From a virus, in IMG/VR virus record IMGVR_UViG_3300030107_002608, positions 1 through 29,601 of that record: a DNA stretch of 29,601 nucleotides; one strand, written 5' to 3'. The translations under genes and the position numbers were made by a program. Positions 2,639 to 19,191 of this stretch are shown here, piece by piece; within the stretch, counting starts at the first letter, position 1, and each line of letters begins with the position of its first letter. The notes beneath the pieces were generated by a model that was not told the origin of the DNA, did not search any database, and worked only from the letters and a program-made list of their open reading frames with translations.

Positions 2639-2883
2639 CGATCTATCAATCTAGCCCTTCGCGCTATGAAGCCACCGCCCTTTACGCTTCTAATCTTCTT
2701 TGCAGCAGAGGATGTACCACTGCTTTTAGGTTTTGGCCCTCTAAAGTCTTTTCTTTTTACTCCAGATGGGTCTTTGATTTTGCCTGCACATATCTTGCTG
2801 GCATAGGCATTCGCGTAAGCTGATGGATATACCTTGAACTTGCGCTTAGCTGCTGCTTTACCTCTAGGGCATAGTTTTGTCAT
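2635..2883 (-). CDS. Small basic conserved phage protein (CPRGKAAAKRKFKVYPSAYANAYAS type)
   Basis: 82 residues. The core reads CPRGKAAAKRKFKVYPSAYA and continues to SKICAGKIKDPSGVKR. This Cys-plus-basic YPSAYANAYAS family is, from memory, common in marine phages and occurs in algal viruses as a domain of unknown function. The C terminus (SVKGGGFIARRARLIDR) resembles the Gly/Arg tags on several other proteins here, though more divergently. Starts and stops overlap both neighbours by 4 bases. It may bind nucleic acid given its charge, but no residue-level evidence fixes a function. Confidence 0.8.
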   Translation of the reverse strand: MTKLCPRGKAAAKRKFKVYPSAYANAYASKICAGKIKDPSGVKRKDFRGPKPKSSGTSSAAKKIRSVKGGGFIARRARLIDR

Positions 2884-3224
2884 GAACCTACACTCACTAC
2901 TATATTGCCGTTAGTAATCACTTGAACCGAACCCACAAGCGCAGTCGCTTCAAGCGGATCAGTGGTATATGGTAACTCTTGAGATAAACTTATCCACTCG
3001 TCACCATCGTACACCTGCAACACATTGATTGATGTGTTCCAGATAATATCGCCTCTGTTGAACTTTAACTCATCTCGTTCTTTTCTGGTAAACAAAGGTG
3101 TCGAGTCTGGATCAAGAGAATCAAGGCTCAACTCTAGCAAACGCACCGTTCTGTTGAATACGTCACCGTCAACTGGGCCATTGGCGTTAACAAAAGGTAA
3201 ACGTCCTTGTAAAACTTTACTCAT
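2880..3224 (-). CDS. Small tail-fibre-like virion protein
   Basis: 114 residues. The middle holds FTRKERDELKFNRGDIIWNT followed by NVLQVYDGDEWISLS. This matches the short 'ERD.L....GDIIWNT..N..QVYDG..W' unit seen in many phage fibre, baseplate and collar proteins, where the Trp/Tyr-rich strand packs onto a beta structure. The C terminus (VGSVQVITNGNIVVSVGS) is beta-rich. It sits directly downstream of the tail hub and overlaps its stop by 4 bases (ATGA), consistent with a tail tip or fibre-anchor part. Receptor binding is an inference from the motif and the neighbours. Confidence 0.7.
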   Translation of the reverse strand: MSKVLQGRLPFVNANGPVDGDVFNRTVRLLELSLDSLDPDSTPLFTRKERDELKFNRGDIIWNTSINVLQVYDGDEWISLSQELPYTTDPLEATALVGSVQVITNGNIVVSVGS

Positions 3225-5116
3225 CGCCTGCCGTTTGGTTGCACATCTAGTCGAGTGCCGCCAATCCTAAACCCAAGGCCAAGCCTAACGCCTGTATCTC
3301 CATCATCGTCGGATTCAAATCTTACAGTCGCTTGTCTGCCACGAGCTCGTGCATCTATTTTCGTTGTGCTTGCCGTGAAAGCCGTGGTCTGGTCTGTTGT
3401 TAAAGAATCACCAGGGAAGTTTCTAGCTTTAATGACAAAGTTCATGGTTTGAGTAGAGCCACTATCTCCTGTGAATTTAACATCTGGTATGCATCTGCGT
3501 ATAAATTGAAACTGTTCTCCATCGCCAAGGTCAAAATCAGCACTTTCAATAAACACGTTGTCCATTGGACTGCCATCGTTGTCATGGCCTGTTTCATGTG
3601 AATAAACGTAGTTTCTAGTGCCATCATTCCCTGTCGCACGAGGAAAGCTTTCTAAGCCTTCATCAAGCCATGCCGTTCTAGAGAGATTGCCTATAGCCCA
3701 AGTTTGATCAACGTAGTTGTATGTCACATATCGATCAATCACTGTGTTTGTGCCAGAACAGTAAAACCAACCTACTTCATCAAACTGCTTGTTCAAAAAC
3801 CCAAACACTTGAAACGCTTGGCCTTCGTTAAAGTCATCAAATACATAAGACCTGACGCTGCACGGCACAGATTGCACGGCACCTTGATAGGAGTAAAAGC
3901 CTTTCTTATCCATCCAGAATACTCCTGAAGGTGTATTCACTGGAGCATTTGGACTGATTAAGCTTACTCCTTCGTTGATTAAGTTAAGACCGAATGTAAG
4001 AGGCGCCCCAATAAACTGTAGGCTGTAAAGAGCAACATCAGTCCATATCAATGTTTCTTGCCTAGCTCGCAGTCCACCAATGATCTGTGATCCCGCAGAG
4101 CATCTAAGTGATCCTGCCGTGTTTGTGGAAGTTGGAAACCACTCTGCTGGATTCTCTTGATCAGAGAACGCAACTAAGAGTGGGTCAGATGCCCCTGTCC
4201 TTGCAGTTGCACTATCATTTATTGGGTCTGCACCAAGAGCAATAACGTGTCGATCTATGTCAGAAACAAGAACTTGCAAGGCCACTGTTGGTGTAAAGTT
4301 TGCGCCAGCTAAATCTGCTATATCTACAGCTCTATCTGTTCCCAATGTCTTTGCGCTTGTGTCCCAGTAATAGATTCGACCTGCTCGCACATTCGCTATC
4401 AAGTCTTCGCCAAAGCTATCTAAAGACCATAGACGAAGCTGATTTAAAGAGCTTAGAGAACTTGATGAGCCCCAAGTCCCAGAGCCCCAAGCTGCTGATC
4501 CCCAACCTGTGCCATCAACAAACACATCAAGCCCTACGTTAATCTGATATGCGCCTACCACAGAACTACCACCGTTGCCGCTATCACTGCTGTTGGCAGT
4601 GACAGTTGTGCCAGAAGTATCTTTTGCTGTAATCACATAGATATCAGTGCTGGTGATGGAATCAATCTCATATTCTTGATTAAGAACTGCTGCGGTGACA
4701 TTGCCGCCTAGAGATGCTGCGCCACTAAAAGTAACAAAGTCGCCTTTGGCCGCACCATGGGCAGTATCAGTCACGTTGATTGAACTTGATCCGTTTGTTG
4801 CGCCAAATGTTACATCACCAGCAGCTGTGGTAGAGCGTATGGGAGTGATGTCGTTATAATTCGCGCCTGATTGTATGTAGAGTTTGGTGCGAGTGCCAAG
4901 GCCAAGAAGCTTTGTGCCTGCTAAAGATGTCCAGCCTAGTAGTTTTCTTCCTGTGCCGTTAAATGAAGGAGTGATAAATTTAACCCAGCCACCTATTTTT
5001 TCAGGCAACCCCTTACGGAATCTAACAAGATTGCCGTCAAACCATCCGCCTTCAGCGGTATAGTCGGTGCCCTCTTTGTTAATTCCAGGATTAAATATGT
5101 ATTTTTGCAAGGGCAT
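3221..5116 (-). CDS. Tail hub/nozzle-type virion protein (P22 gp10-like position)
   Basis: 631 residues. It opens with MPLQKYIFNPGINKEGTDYT, then GGWFDGNLVRFRKGLPEKIG. This N terminus is typical of a large structural protein in marine short-tailed phages that takes the place of the P22 gp10 or T7 gp12 tail hub or nozzle. The rest is beta-rich with repeated Trp/Gly segments (LLGWTSLAGTKLLGLGTRTK; WGSAAWGSGTWGSSSSLSSL) suggestive of a propeller-like body, and the C terminus is basic (DVQPNGRR). Its start overlaps the lysozyme stop as TAATG. The assignment rests on the N-terminal pattern, the size and the operon position; an unspecified structural tail protein is the alternative. Confidence 0.7.
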   Translation of the reverse strand: MPLQKYIFNPGINKEGTDYTAEGGWFDGNLVRFRKGLPEKIGGWVKFITPSFNGTGRKLLGWTSLAGTKLLGLGTRTKLYIQSGANYNDITPIRSTTAAGDVTFGATNGSSSINVTDTAHGAAKGDFVTFSGAASLGGNVTAAVLNQEYEIDSITSTDIYVITAKDTSGTTVTANSSDSGNGGSSVVGAYQINVGLDVFVDGTGWGSAAWGSGTWGSSSSLSSLNQLRLWSLDSFGEDLIANVRAGRIYYWDTSAKTLGTDRAVDIADLAGANFTPTVALQVLVSDIDRHVIALGADPINDSATARTGASDPLLVAFSDQENPAEWFPTSTNTAGSLRCSAGSQIIGGLRARQETLIWTDVALYSLQFIGAPLTFGLNLINEGVSLISPNAPVNTPSGVFWMDKKGFYSYQGAVQSVPCSVRSYVFDDFNEGQAFQVFGFLNKQFDEVGWFYCSGTNTVIDRYVTYNYVDQTWAIGNLSRTAWLDEGLESFPRATGNDGTRNYVYSHETGHDNDGSPMDNVFIESADFDLGDGEQFQFIRRCIPDVKFTGDSGSTQTMNFVIKARNFPGDSLTTDQTTAFTASTTKIDARARGRQATVRFESDDDGDTGVRLGLGFRIGGTRLDVQPNGRR

Positions 5117-11260: not shown

Positions 11261-11392
11261 TTATCTTCTCCGACGTTTAGCAACGGGCTTTTTCATAGAG
11301 GCCACATGCTTCTTGAGCGTTTCAGCTTGTTTTTTATGAGTCTTGGAGGCTTTTTCTAGTCCCTTGATAATCTTCTTCACTTTACGTGGCAT
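11261..11392 (-). CDS. 43-residue basic microprotein
   Basis: Translation from the ATG at 11392 gives MPRKVKKIIKGLEKASKTHK, then KQAETLKKHVASMKKPVAKR and RRR before TAA. The ATG overlaps the stop of the upstream gene (TAATG) and the TAA directly abuts the ATG of the fibre gene at 11260, so it fills the only gap in this part of the operon exactly. About 20 of 43 residues are Lys, Arg or His, and the sequence is predicted as one amphipathic helix with a basic tail. I recall similar short KKIxKGLxKASKTH peptides next to fibre genes in other marine phages, but no function. DNA binding or a fibre-assembly role are guesses. Confidence 0.75.
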   Translation of the reverse strand: MPRKVKKIIKGLEKASKTHKKQAETLKKHVASMKKPVAKRRRR

Positions 11393-12027
11393 TAAGCTAC
11401 CTCTTCCCAATTTGGAGTTTGACTGTCTGTTACATCAGTCCAACTCGGTGTTTGACTATCTGACACACTTGACCAGGTTGGCGTTTGACTATCTGAAACG
11501 CTTGACCAGGTTGGTGTTTGACTATCAGTTATACTACTCCAATTCGGGTCTTGCCCGTCATTTATGATACCGTAAACGTTAAAATATCCTATCGCTCCCG
11601 TTGACGAAACGCCTGTAGGAGTTGCGTTAGCCGAGCCCGATACTGATACAGATCCAATCTCTCCGCTACCTTGTACGCCAGTAACTGATACATTCGCTGC
11701 ACCTGTGACCGTAATCGAGCCAACGGCTCCAGTCCCAGTATTACCAGTAACACTAACATTCGCATCAGCGGATACAGTAGCCGTTCCGATAGATCCAGTG
11801 CCTGCCACGCCCGTGACAGATACATCGATACCCGCCCCTTGGACGATTGTGACCGACCCGATTGACCCTGTGCCAGAAACGCCTGTGACAACGGCATCTG
11901 TGCTGAGGATGACCGTGACTGATCCAACAGAACCTGTTGCAGATACGCCAGTAACTTCAATAGGCGCTTCTTCGCCCCAAGCGCCCTCACCCCAAGTGCC
12001 TCTGCCCCAGCCCGTGACATTAGCCAT
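11392..12027 (-). CDS. Two-repeat beta protein: 22-residue VTGVxGTGSIGSVTV units and 11-residue Trp repeats
   Basis: 211 residues with three parts. The N terminus is Trp/Gly-rich (VTGWGRGTWGEGAWGEE). Residues about 25-153 hold six copies of a ~22-residue unit of the form VTGV.GTGSIGSVTV, likely a stacked beta structure. Residues about 160-210 hold five 11-residue units around DSQTPTWSSVS with Trp at 163, 174, 185, 196 and 207. Proteins with these elements occur among virion genes of marine phages. It lies between tail/connector genes and the fibre, so a fibre, whisker or capsid-decorating role is plausible but unproven. The stop overlaps the 43-residue gene as TAATG. Confidence 0.8.
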   Translation of the reverse strand: MANVTGWGRGTWGEGAWGEEAPIEVTGVSATGSVGSVTVILSTDAVVTGVSGTGSIGSVTIVQGAGIDVSVTGVAGTGSIGTATVSADANVSVTGNTGTGAVGSITVTGAANVSVTGVQGSGEIGSVSVSGSANATPTGVSSTGAIGYFNVYGIINDGQDPNWSSITDSQTPTWSSVSDSQTPTWSSVSDSQTPSWTDVTDSQTPNWEEVA

Positions 12028-12030
12028 TCC

Positions 12031-12462
12031 CTATGCGATGCGAATAATCGCATTCGACGCATCAGCTGCAGGAAACTGTATTGTAAAATCACCAGAACTT
12101 GATGACTTATCTGCGCCAAAATCAAGCGCACACACAGATGGATCACCTGATGCGCTGTCATTGAATATCAGTGCCCCTCTTGCTGTTAAAGTGCTTGAGG
12201 AGAAGGTCAAGTCAGAAAAGTCTGTTATGGCAGTGGTCCCATCGTTGCTAGGATCGACGCGAGTAAGTGCTGCGCCCTTTGCTGTGTATCCTGTGCCTGA
12301 TATCTCATTTGATGTGGTGTAAGCCGTGGTGCTTGCCCCCAGGGAAGCAGAGCTTGTGTACAGCGCAAGATTGAATGTGCTGCCGCCTGAGTTTTTGAAG
12401 TTGTGAACTGCCTCTAATATTTCTTTTTTAAATGTTGTGCACATCGCTGTTGTTATGGCCAT
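12031..12462 (-). CDS. Conserved beta-rich virion protein
   Basis: 143 residues: MAITTAMCTTFKKEILEAVH at the N terminus, then FNLALYTSSASLGASTTAYT and GYTAKGAALTRVDPSNDGTT, with a Ser/Thr-rich beta-type C-terminal half. It resembles a family repeatedly found in marine phage structural operons and usually listed as virion-associated or hypothetical. The start follows AGGAG at good spacing and overlaps the previous stop as TAATG. Likely part of the tail or the tail-capsid joint, by position only. Confidence 0.75.
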   Translation of the reverse strand: MAITTAMCTTFKKEILEAVHNFKNSGGSTFNLALYTSSASLGASTTAYTTSNEISGTGYTAKGAALTRVDPSNDGTTAITDFSDLTFSSSTLTARGALIFNDSASGDPSVCALDFGADKSSSSGDFTIQFPAADASNAIIRIA

Positions 12463-12755
12463 TACAGACTCCTGATTATGTTTGCCATATCATCATGGCC
12501 TTGTTTTTCCAATTCTGCGATCAAAGTCGTTCTGTCGCTCTTGATGGCTTCTTTAATGTAAAACGCCACAGTTGCCTCTACAGATTGTTTGAAAGCCTCT
12601 GCTTGCTGAGCAATTAAAGGATGGCAGTTTCCACCAACACTCACAATCTTATCTGCAGCAGCCTTTGCCCAAAACTCTGGGTCATGGCCTTTCCCTACAG
12701 TTGTCTCAACAATGACATTACCAATTTCAAGTTTGGTTGCTTCAAAAAAAGCCAA
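12462..12755 (-). CDS. Small helical conserved phage protein
   Basis: 97 residues: a short beta opening (KLEIGNVIVETTVGKGHDPE), then helices (FWAKAAADKIVSVGGNCHPL; AQQAEAFKQSVEATVAFYIK) and a C terminus ending GHDDMANIIRSL. Its 'HP.IA.QAEAFK' helix resembles a conserved small family located between connector and fibre genes in marine phages. No active-site or membrane feature is visible. It starts 2 bases after the adaptor stop and ends overlapping the next start (TAATG). Function unknown. Confidence 0.75.
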   Translation of the reverse strand: MAFFEATKLEIGNVIVETTVGKGHDPEFWAKAAADKIVSVGGNCHPLIAQQAEAFKQSVEATVAFYIKEAIKSDRTTLIAELEKQGHDDMANIIRSL

Positions 12756-12757
12756 AA

Positions 12758-13393
12758 CTAAGTGCTCGCGATGTCGTATCTATATTCGTCCCTTGCTCCA
12801 TAACCTTCGCCAAGCTTTTTAAGAGAAGATATAGCCATCATAAAACGTTGCTCGTACTGGCCTATTTCTTCAGGAACCTTGAGAAATGTCGCTGCTTCTA
12901 CAAGCGTTCCATAAAGCATAGCGTCAGGGGCGTTTGTAGAAAGCCAAGTGGTGCCGCTGTCTGCGCCCGCCGTAAGTGACGCTGGCCTGTATTTGTAGTG
13001 AAGCTCAAACGAGTAATCAGATGCAGGCGTAGGCGCTAAAATGAACGTATTGTCATCAAAAAGAGCGTAATACTTTGTTTCGCCGGTTGTTGATGCGTTA
13101 GGCGTGTAATCTCTAATAAAAGAAACATGCTTTAACAACGGATATGTGTAAACGCTATTGATGATGAGCGCCAAGCTGTAAGAAGCCAAGAAGTCTGAAG
13201 GGGTTGATAGGTACTGAAAACCTGTGGTTGCGTTACCTGTGACGTTCTTTCTGAACACAGGCAACTGAACGTTCTTCAGTATGCGCTCTTCAGCTTCTTT
13301 TATGAATGTATCAAGATCAGCTACAAAAGTGGTTTCTGCAGTTTCACAGTAGTCTTGAACCGTTGATTTCAGTGTCGCTAATGTAAAACTCAT
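12758..13393 (-). CDS. Head-tail adaptor-like protein (SU10/T7 gp11 type)
   Basis: 211 residues. The N terminus is helical (TLATLKSTVQDYCETAETTF), followed by DTFIKEAEERILKNVQLPVF and a mixed core with LSTPSDFLASYSLALIINSV and FELHYKYRPASLTAGADSGT, then helices ending KLGEGYGARDEYRYD. The helix-beta-helix order, the 'FI..AE.RI...' helix and the 'YP.LLY..L.EA..FL' style C-terminal half fit phage adaptor proteins that link the portal ring to the tail. It overlaps the zinc-ribbon gene by 4 bases. Assigned by pattern and by the neighbouring P22 gp4-like gene. Confidence 0.7.
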   Translation of the reverse strand: MSFTLATLKSTVQDYCETAETTFVADLDTFIKEAEERILKNVQLPVFRKNVTGNATTGFQYLSTPSDFLASYSLALIINSVYTYPLLKHVSFIRDYTPNASTTGETKYYALFDDNTFILAPTPASDYSFELHYKYRPASLTAGADSGTTWLSTNAPDAMLYGTLVEAATFLKVPEEIGQYEQRFMMAISSLKKLGEGYGARDEYRYDIAST

Positions 13394-13731
13394 GTTGTCA
13401 CCACCGTTACTGTTCCAACAGATCCCGTTGCGCCATCTATACTAAACTCAGAACCTATCGGATCACCTGTAGTAGACATCATTTGATTGTCATCAATCGT
13501 TCTTACAACGCCTGCCCCGGCAACCACATCAGGAGAAAGATTAGGCCTAGGAAAGCGCAGCGCCTCTGGATCAGAAACATTATGAATGGGCTCTAGCTGC
13601 GGATGTTTTGGTTCGTAACACTCAGGGCAAACACGAAAGCCTGTCCACTCTTTTTTTAGCTCAAGGTATTTGTATTGAAAGCCACATCTATCGCATATGG
13701 CAATTGCATACTTGCCAGAAGCAAAAGCCAT
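13390..13731 (-). CDS. Zinc-ribbon protein carrying one copy of the downstream repeat unit
   Basis: 113 residues. Cys13 and Cys16 (ICDRCGFQYKYLELKKEW) pair with Cys35 and Cys38 (CPECYEPKHPQLEP) to form a zinc ribbon of the type that recurs beside connector genes in many phages. The middle (NVSDPEALRFPRPNLSPDVV) is loop-rich. The last ~15 residues (DGATGSVGTVTVVTT) match one unit of the VTGVxATGSVGSVTV repeat in the gene at 11392-12027. It lies between two connector proteins and overlaps both neighbours (TAATG, ATGA), so a structural or assembly role in the neck is likely. Metal binding is expected from the four Cys residues. Confidence 0.8.
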   Translation of the reverse strand: MAFASGKYAIAICDRCGFQYKYLELKKEWTGFRVCPECYEPKHPQLEPIHNVSDPEALRFPRPNLSPDVVAGAGVVRTIDDNQMMSTTGDPIGSEFSIDGATGSVGTVTVVTT

Positions 13732-14411
13732 TACGCTCTCCTGTAAGACCTGGTATCGGGATAAACATTAAAAGATGCTCTGCTTTCATCTTGATCGGCT
13801 GCTCTAGCAAATTCTTCTTCATAGAATCCTTTGAGCATTTGCACGCGATCAGGCGCCTTTTTCAATGCTATGTAGTACGCCAGTCCTGCTGACAAACAGG
13901 GGTAGAATCGAAAAGGCACATCGACTGTGTTCACGCTAGCGTCTGCATCTTCAATCCGAACCAATCGATTAATGATCAATTGATCTGTTGAGTTCTCTGA
14001 TGCTGGCCAGATATAAAGACGAGGCGTCAATTGTTTATCAAGAAAGAACTGAGTCGGCCTTGCTTGAGTGGATTTGGTTGGAATGTTGTAATACTCAGAC
14101 CTTCCTATCTGCTCCATAGTGATATCTGTGGTCGTTGAGCCTTCAGTTCTTCTGATAACAACATCAAGCACATCAATCGTGCTCGCAGATAAGTCAATGA
14201 ACTCATCGCCAGTTGTTAGAGTAGTTGTGCTATTGGTTACCGTCCACTGATTCAAGCCTCTGTTTGCCCAGTCAGCAAACAAAAGATTCAAAGATCTTCT
14301 TGCAGTTACGCCATCGTAGCCGGTGCGGAATTCAAGGCCACATCTTTCAAATGCTTCCTCTATGTATTCCGCAACATCTGGCTCAAAGTCTCTGCTTCCA
14401 GAAGTGGCCAT
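13731..14411 (-). CDS. P22 gp4-like head-tail connector/adaptor
   Basis: 226 residues. The N-terminal half has helices in the classic connector pattern: DVAEYIEEAFERCGLEFRTG, then ARRSLNLLFADWANRGLNQW. A beta section with FIDLSASTIDVLDVVIRRTE follows, and then LNVYP-like C-terminal residues (SFNVYPDTRSYRRA). The 'EAFERCG...G.....ARRSLN.L...W..RG.N.W' block matches the P22 tail-accessory gp4-like family that binds the portal bottom. Both ends overlap neighbours by one base (TAATG). No lysozyme activity motif is apparent. Confidence is good for the family and moderate for the exact role. Confidence 0.8.
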   Translation of the reverse strand: MATSGSRDFEPDVAEYIEEAFERCGLEFRTGYDGVTARRSLNLLFADWANRGLNQWTVTNSTTTLTTGDEFIDLSASTIDVLDVVIRRTEGSTTTDITMEQIGRSEYYNIPTKSTQARPTQFFLDKQLTPRLYIWPASENSTDQLIINRLVRIEDADASVNTVDVPFRFYPCLSAGLAYYIALKKAPDRVQMLKGFYEEEFARAADQDESRASFNVYPDTRSYRRA

Positions 14412-18563: not shown

Positions 18564-18998
18564 CTATGCTGATTTGATATCGTCTGGATTAAGAATTGTT
18601 CCGATTACTTCATCATCGTTGATGATGCGAACCTCGTGGTCATCCTCTAAAGAGAATCGAGCACCCGCATAACGACCAATGAGAACCCAGTCGCCTTCTT
18701 GGCACCAAGGCTCGTTGCCAAACTTATCTAGATCACGATAAGCCAATGGGCCAACTTTCAGAACGTAACAAACAGATGTAGCAAGATTTTCCTTGCTTAC
18801 TGTGGATTCAAGCAGCTGTATGCCGCCATCTGTTACACCTTTTCCTTTGTATGGAAGGACAAGAAGTCTCCATCCAGAGGGATCAGGCATTCTTTCAACT
18901 AACGTCTTATCTAGCACAGAAGGGTCCAAAACCCTTTCACTCACATATGCATCCGTAACGGACGGTTTTGCGATGGAATCTAATGATAGATCACTCAT
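18564..18998 (-). CDS. GroES-like co-chaperonin (phage Cpn10)
   Basis: 144 residues from the ATG at 18998, which has AGGAGATCCCCTCG before it; an in-frame ATG at 19016 overlaps the previous gene by 26 bases and lacks that site. Residues about 36-137 form a Cpn10-like beta barrel: RMPDPSGWRLLVLPYKGKGV, a mobile-loop segment with GGIQL (res. 58-62, compare the GGIVL of GroES), then GDWVLIGRYAGARFSLEDD and VRIINDDEVIGTIL. A ~36-residue N-terminal extension is not typical of host GroES. Like T4 gp31, it may form the lid for host GroEL to fold the capsid protein; it sits just ahead of the scaffold and capsid genes. Confidence 0.88.
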   Translation of the reverse strand: MSDLSLDSIAKPSVTDAYVSERVLDPSVLDKTLVERMPDPSGWRLLVLPYKGKGVTDGGIQLLESTVSKENLATSVCYVLKVGPLAYRDLDKFGNEPWCQEGDWVLIGRYAGARFSLEDDHEVRIINDDEVIGTILNPDDIKSA

Positions 18999-19191
18999 CG
19001 AGGGGATCTCCTTCAATATGCAACGCTTCTTTTAGCTCATCACGAAGGGTGCGAAGCATCGATAACTCACCCATCGCAAATTTGTAGTCCTCCATATCCT
19101 TGATATTGCCAGAGGTTATGTAATCAATATGAGACTCCTCATATTGATCTATTTTCTTATAAATGTAGGCCGCGAGAGATATTGAATCCAT
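18991..19191 (-). CDS. Small helical conserved phage protein
   Basis: 66 residues (MDSISLAAYIYKKIDQYEES, then HIDYITSGNIKDMEDYKFAM). It is predicted as helix-turn-helix-like segments with an acidic C terminus. The 'GNIKDMEDY' type block is familiar from marine phages next to the portal and scaffold genes, but no function is known. It directly abuts the previous stop and overlaps the co-chaperonin start by 8 bases. Confidence 0.7.
   Translation of the reverse strand: MDSISLAAYIYKKIDQYEESHIDYITSGNIKDMEDYKFAMGELSMLRTLRDELKEALHIEGDPLDE

Follow-up and report, generated by a model that had tools for sequence, protein, structure and literature searches.

What does it mean that a small zinc-ribbon protein of a virus ends in the same short peptide that a second, nearby protein strings together six times? 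The question is raised by IMG/VR virus record IMGVR_UViG_3300030107_002608, of which we analysed positions 1 to 29,601 as one stretch of 29,601 bases (hereafter the window); the genes discussed below are read on its minus strand. By gene content, the virus appears to belong to the SU10/HTVC023P-like short-tailed phages. Comparison with relatives supports the view that the peptide is a C-terminal module common to otherwise dissimilar tail proteins. We propose, with confidence that is about evenly balanced, that this strand-loop-strand unit acts as a docking strand on ring-coupled tail proteins and forms a stack in the array protein.

The gene of the zinc-ribbon protein (ZR; 13390..13731) lies between two adaptor genes and encodes 113 residues, comprising a CxxC...CxxC zinc ribbon, a variable linker and a C-terminal unit, DGATGSVGTVTVVTT (13393..13437), whose last codons form the Shine-Dalgarno-like GGTGGTGA and overlap the next start (ATGA). 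The array protein (11392..12027; 211 residues) consists of a WG motif, GWGRGTWGEGAWG (11974..12012), six repeat units (11569..11955, residues 25-153, with unit 1 at 11890-11955) and 11-residue SQTPxW repeats. As a first-pass annotation of this DNA had noticed, the ZR C-terminus, ...EFSIDGATGSVGTVTVVTT, resembles array unit 1, VTGVSATGSVGSVTV; nine of the ten core residues are identical. The agreement of 26 of 32 bases that it reported is in fact 25/32, ungapped, between the tail core (13403-13434) and unit 1 (11912-11943); start to start, the two lie 1491 bases apart, and the range 11392-13731 also includes adaptor 2 and two further genes. Unit 1 is the best match to the tail core elsewhere in the window on both strands, followed by another array unit with 21 bases, and 100 dinucleotide shuffles of the window gave best matches of only 18-22 (mean 19.2). 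Codons are shared at five of the nine identical residues, a weak excess over the 2.5 expected.

Relatives were taken from IMG/VR searches as the best 80 loci of each search, which is not a census. Some contigs recur under a second locus id, and merging of near-identical sequences was confined to the counts called distinct and to the overlap, GTG and 16S-pairing counts below. In the first ZR search (the best 80 of at least 600 loci), the motif is kept in 78/78 complete proteins. The first-pass annotation had named two outcomes that would speak against the match, namely absence of the unit from the ZR of other phages and a frame artefact at the 3' end. Neither was found, and the artefact is ruled out by a ZR frame that is open from start to stop and by the motif being in frame in the 78 relatives with a complete end. 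In four of the 78 (L064, L069, L076 and L078), the motif precedes a proline-rich linker and a domain that ends near YYYCTNHSGMGG, which we take to be perhaps cupredoxin-like; the extended ZR of L064 yielded no Pfam domain at cut-off. A wider set of 182 ZR open reading frames (ORFs), in which the window occurs twice (as itself and as L149), contains 129 with one terminal unit, 33 that bear an array (31 from IMG/VR and two from named phages), four with a unit and an extension, and 16 with none. This last class derives from a narrow pattern and includes L106, L110, L126, L054, L109 and L136, which visibly carry a variant, and L166, which is a short frame. When the pattern was relaxed and loci were added, the motif was terminal in 257 of 342 complete ZR ORFs; the remaining 85, sorted in part, are array-bearing, extended, cut-short and unit-less forms.

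The ZR tail is as conserved as the zinc ribbon itself. Across 47 aligned ZR sequences, the mean frequency of the majority residue is 0.75 in the tail core, 0.77 in the ribbon and 0.43 in the linker, and the glycine of the ATGSVG half is invariant while being encoded by all four codons. The window protein has the two CxxC pairs about 20 residues apart that define a zinc ribbon (cysteines 13, 16, 35 and 38), and no Pfam zinc-ribbon model matches it at cut-off. This cysteine pattern is kept in 73 of 119 distinct complete relatives and absent in 46; 14 of the 119 have lost the pattern and retained the tail. The unit holds its place on ZR down to about 34% protein identity.

The unit is also found on other tail genes. 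A degenerate DNA pattern (the unit, three residues and a stop), blind to protein family, was scanned across the viral collection and returned at least 116 loci: 78 ZR genes, 34 members of a nozzle-adjacent family, two split nozzle genes and two contig-end fragments. In the window, the nozzle-adjacent protein (2880..3224; 114 residues) bears a diverged C-terminal unit, EATALVGSVQVITNGNIVVSVGS, at 2883-2951. Its gene overlaps by four bases that of a nozzle-like protein (3221..5116), which matches phrog_3287 and PDB chain 9nwi_Y (E 3.7e-9). The matched chain is present in six copies and was deposited as 'Capsid and scaffold protein'; the assignment as a putative nozzle is our own reading of these matches. 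Among relatives of the window-type nozzle-adjacent protein, a VGxVQV...IVV pattern is found in 87/87, and 77/87 directly follow the nozzle. The nozzle-adjacent family returned by the scan, of about 100 residues and here called MSRNL after its typical start, has a C-terminal unit in 110 of 111 complete ORFs, and its gene comes directly after the nozzle gene in 105 of 116 cases; a tblastn search of named phages gave no match. The two nozzle-adjacent families may be remote kin of each other (profile comparison, P 0.037). With their tails removed, they showed no relation to ZR when profiles of 14 to 16 chosen sequences were compared (P 0.12 and 0.98). In L338 (12673-13403 of the reverse complement, minus strand) and L342 (8400 bases), the interruption is in the nozzle gene itself: a unit and a stop come after about 100 residues, and the remainder starts in an ATGA overlap. 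The search for the unit at the ends of unrelated phage proteins, which the first-pass annotation had recommended, was thus positive in the MSRNL family, in diverged form in the window protein at 2880-3224, and in the split nozzle.

The case for sharing of the unit rests on such sets, single matches being weak. A profile trained on 327 array units alone and read at a loose limit detected 143/188 ZR and 73/87 window-type nozzle-adjacent proteins, compared with 114 of 21,917 other ORFs; one array (L083), whose listed range contained stops, was excluded from the array alignment. At 8 bits or more, the profile retained 115 ZR proteins, 25 window-type nozzle-adjacent proteins and ten other ORFs, the latter being five array proteins and five antisense ORFs. 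Together, this profile and the DNA shuffles (at most 22/32) rule out chance similarity.

The number of units on ZR forms a series. In relatives of lake phage DSL-LC04, the ZR proteins are 116 to 228 residues long and carry one to about six units, by visual count in the 31 of 80 loci that were read. The ZR of Roseobacter phages CRP-901 and CRP-902, and of related IMG/VR phages, has a whole array, with a terminal WG motif that resembles the one at the start of the window's array protein. A search with the CRP-902 protein hit one place per CRP record, and 22 array-bearing ZR loci of this type, mostly short, contained no separate array ORF. In CRP-type ZR, the units precede the WG motif, whereas in the array gene the WG motif precedes the units. 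This difference in module order rules out a plain fusion of ZR and array genes in the CRP phages, and CRP-type ZR therefore looks like the product of unit growth plus motif gain. A motif like that of the array protein is also seen in the nozzle protein of the window, GWGSAAWGSGTWG at 4469-4507.

In donor-strand or strand-addition joints, an unfolded terminal strand completes the sheet of a partner, and such a joint is the mechanism that we propose here; by sequence, ZR, the array protein and the MSRNL family have no convincing relative in the PDB. Several tail proteins of this phage group have in common a predicted strand-loop-strand unit of about 22 residues, of which the array protein stacks six or more copies, while ZR and the nozzle-adjacent protein each end in one (ZR in up to about six, or a whole array). 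ZR is encoded between two adaptor genes and overlaps both, and the nozzle-adjacent gene overlaps the nozzle gene; the adaptor ring, the nozzle and the array protein could be linked through one strand-addition joint. The terminal copy would fold only once paired with an edge strand, either in the array protein or in another tail that bears the unit, and ZR would position the array protein at the neck, beside the fibre.

Docking of the ZR tail is plausible in that the tail is conserved, is disordered in the model of the protein alone and varies in step with the type of array. In the single-chain model of ZR, the predicted local distance difference test score (pLDDT) is 80-84 for the ribbon and 53-57 for the tail, which comprises one strand of the unit together with its loop and is unfolded in this model. 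The TG fraction of the array is 0.79 in 12 clusters with TG tails versus 0.10 in three clusters without (70% clustering; 15 of 5000 permutations), and clustering at 80% and 90% gave 16 and 6 of 5000 permutations, respectively.

Several observations weigh against this docking proposal. Single ZR tails score weakly with the array profile (E 0.002 to above 1; the window tail alone, E 0.18), and a unit of such shortness and low complexity could have arisen by convergence on a common strand sequence. Few switches underlie the covariation, with one supported independent pair on the tree, and shared ancestry is therefore a possible source of it. The model of the array protein is poor (pLDDT 44.6), with two predicted strands per unit but not the confident coil that would mark a beta-solenoid. 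Of the four named records matched by array queries (DSL-LC04, ct7L0027, HTVC027P and HTVC023P), HTVC027P and ct7L0027 possess an array protein while their ZR lacks a clear unit, and the ZR end of HTVC023P is doubtful as a unit; in 023Pt_psg01 and ct2G2228, neither an array nor a ZR unit was found. This tally of exceptions leaves aside the Synechococcus and Planktothrix phages that were also hit. Finally, the placement of ZR and the array protein in the virion is derived from gene order.

Among the alternatives, the one that fares best, though we regard it as somewhat unlikely, is common descent without docking, in which the ZR tail would be a relic of an old array, or an assembly or stability tag derived from it, and would have been retained because it folds with its own copies in a ZR ring. 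The copy-number series, the array-bearing ZR and the lineage dialect that tail and array have in common would all follow from such a history. It accounts less readily for a tail that is conserved like the zinc ribbon, and for the presence of the same unit on other tail proteins.

A further alternative is that the shared C-terminus is mainly a translation signal. A Shine-Dalgarno sequence is required within the final codons when genes overlap as ATGA; in this frame, GGTG(GTG)A encodes T-V-(V)-T, and unrelated genes could converge on VTVxTT. An ATGA or GTGA overlap with the next start is found in 171/215 members of the ZR family, 62/70 of the MSRNL family and 16/26 of the window-type nozzle-adjacent family, as opposed to 0 to 37% in 14 further families encoded on these contigs. 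These counts take whole families, with or without the unit, and the two adaptor families among the 14 may be paralogues that share members. GTG encodes the final valine of the motif in 166/177 terminal units that precede an overlapping start, compared with 3/217 internal array units. Pairing with a 13-base 16S ribosomal RNA tail, the common bacterial one, used in place of that of the host, exceeds that of random synonymous versions in 143/158, 55/57 and 23/23 cases in three sets, and in 21/29 without overlap. With a nine-base tail, the pairing excess is small (-4.14 for ZR and -3.35 for MSRNL, against -3.06 for the internal control), and the size of the effect therefore depends on the tail assumed. 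Overlapping genes commonly have the ribosome-binding site of the second inside the end of the first. To judge from its codons, the last part of the terminal unit very probably also serves the following gene as ribosome-binding site, and the GTG bias at the terminal valine would be due to this. Such a role restricts the share of the VTVxTT similarity that is attributable to protein function; the ATGSVG half is untouched by it. The translation signal would explain the codons and about the last five residues, but not the ATGSVG half, and motif ends without overlap exist (25 in ZR, GTG in 13; six in MSRNL, though GTG in five). Moreover, the motif also occurs within a gene, in the array units, and ZR can carry as many as about six units. 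We consider it distinctly improbable that the translation signal is the main source of the similarity.

The two functions could also be combined in a dual-purpose cassette, an idea that we rate as unlikely. Its protein half would supply a universal joint strand for tail parts and its DNA half a ribosome-binding site plus an ATGA start, so that insertion into a gene would yield an N-terminal portion that ends in a docking tail, and a second part that continues to be translated, as the split nozzle genes of L338 and L342 look. If this cassette is real, phages could split and re-link tail proteins while keeping assembly and expression, and it would offer a route to split or extend phage structural genes with assembly and translation staying coupled.

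That a single DNA module was recently spread over many genes by copying within the genome or by gene conversion is very improbable: the window match of 25/32 lies above average, being reached by 5% of other genomes' arrays, and the split nozzle gene carries the unit in two related contigs, but across 101 loci (relatives not merged) ZR tail DNA matches the array of its own genome at 19.05 of 30 bases and those of other genomes at 18.63, the positions of the unit are old and stable, and codons differ between terminal and internal units. Recent self-copying of the unit is, on these DNA comparisons, not supported. The mobile module envisaged by the first-pass annotation, which would copy itself onto unrelated genes, thus survives as a module on otherwise dissimilar tail proteins, while its self-copying finds no general same-genome DNA excess.

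The window has the tail module expected of an SU10-like short-tailed phage. As in the SU10-type tail, with its adaptor gp11 and nozzle gp17 (PDB 7z47), the window encodes a nozzle-like protein and has two SU10_adaptor-like genes. The adaptor ring of SU10 is where its long tail fibres dock, according to the parts of the published account available to us (PMC9509320); those parts name no zinc-ribbon or repeat-unit protein, and the word 'zinc' is absent from the main text. In the HTVC023P-like pelagiphages and CRP-901/902, ZR by eye also follows an adaptor gene, with a phrog_644-like gene two genes on. The array gene comes next in HTVC027P, lies elsewhere in HTVC023P and was not found in the CRP phages. 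The sections consulted of a report on HTVC023P-like pelagiphages name adaptor, fibre and portal genes and not the unit (PMC10149686), and those of the report on the CRP-901/902 roseophages do not treat tail proteins (PMC9599517). The literature that we found, available in part, does not name the unit or mention that it is shared, which does not prove that both are unpublished.

Promiscuous immunoglobulin (Ig)-like domains provide a precedent in which one domain type is appended to unrelated phage head and tail proteins, in some cases by frameshift. Whereas these domains are Ig folds of 80-100 residues, the unit considered here has about 22 residues, occurs as anything from half a repeat to several and occupies stable gene positions. 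No Pfam Ig match was found in the window, the low-confidence model gives two short strands per unit, and the unit is in frame in the window and in its relatives, with no sign of attachment by frameshift. If the docking proposal is correct, the unit would provide a sequence signature for uncharacterised small proteins that join neck and nozzle, and a rule by which tail parts with unrelated bodies recognise one partner.

On the minus strand, the genes of the window are ordered terminase, portal, major head protein, adaptor 1, ZR, adaptor 2, a 97-residue protein, a phrog_644 protein, the array protein, an S74-type fibre, a lysozyme, the nozzle-like protein and the nozzle-adjacent protein. Adaptor 1 (13731..14411) matches Pfam SU10_adaptor (E 1.7e-8) and has no PDB match by sequence; its stop has one base in common with the ZR start. 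Adaptor 2 (12758..13393) matches Pfam SU10_adaptor and the SU10 adaptor in PDB 7z47 (E 1.4e-4), and its start overlaps the ZR stop by four bases. The 97-residue protein (12462-12755) begins with LEIGNVIVETT, which bears a weak likeness to the unit (relatives score about 4 to 7 bits). The SQTPxW repeats that close the array protein span 11395-11568, differ in number among relatives and give a weak match to Pfam CTD (Spt5), below cut-off. Between the array and fibre genes lies a lysine-rich reading frame of 43 residues (11261-11392, minus strand), whose start shares a base with the array stop, and a GroES-like co-chaperonin gene (Pfam Cpn10) is present at 18564-19016.

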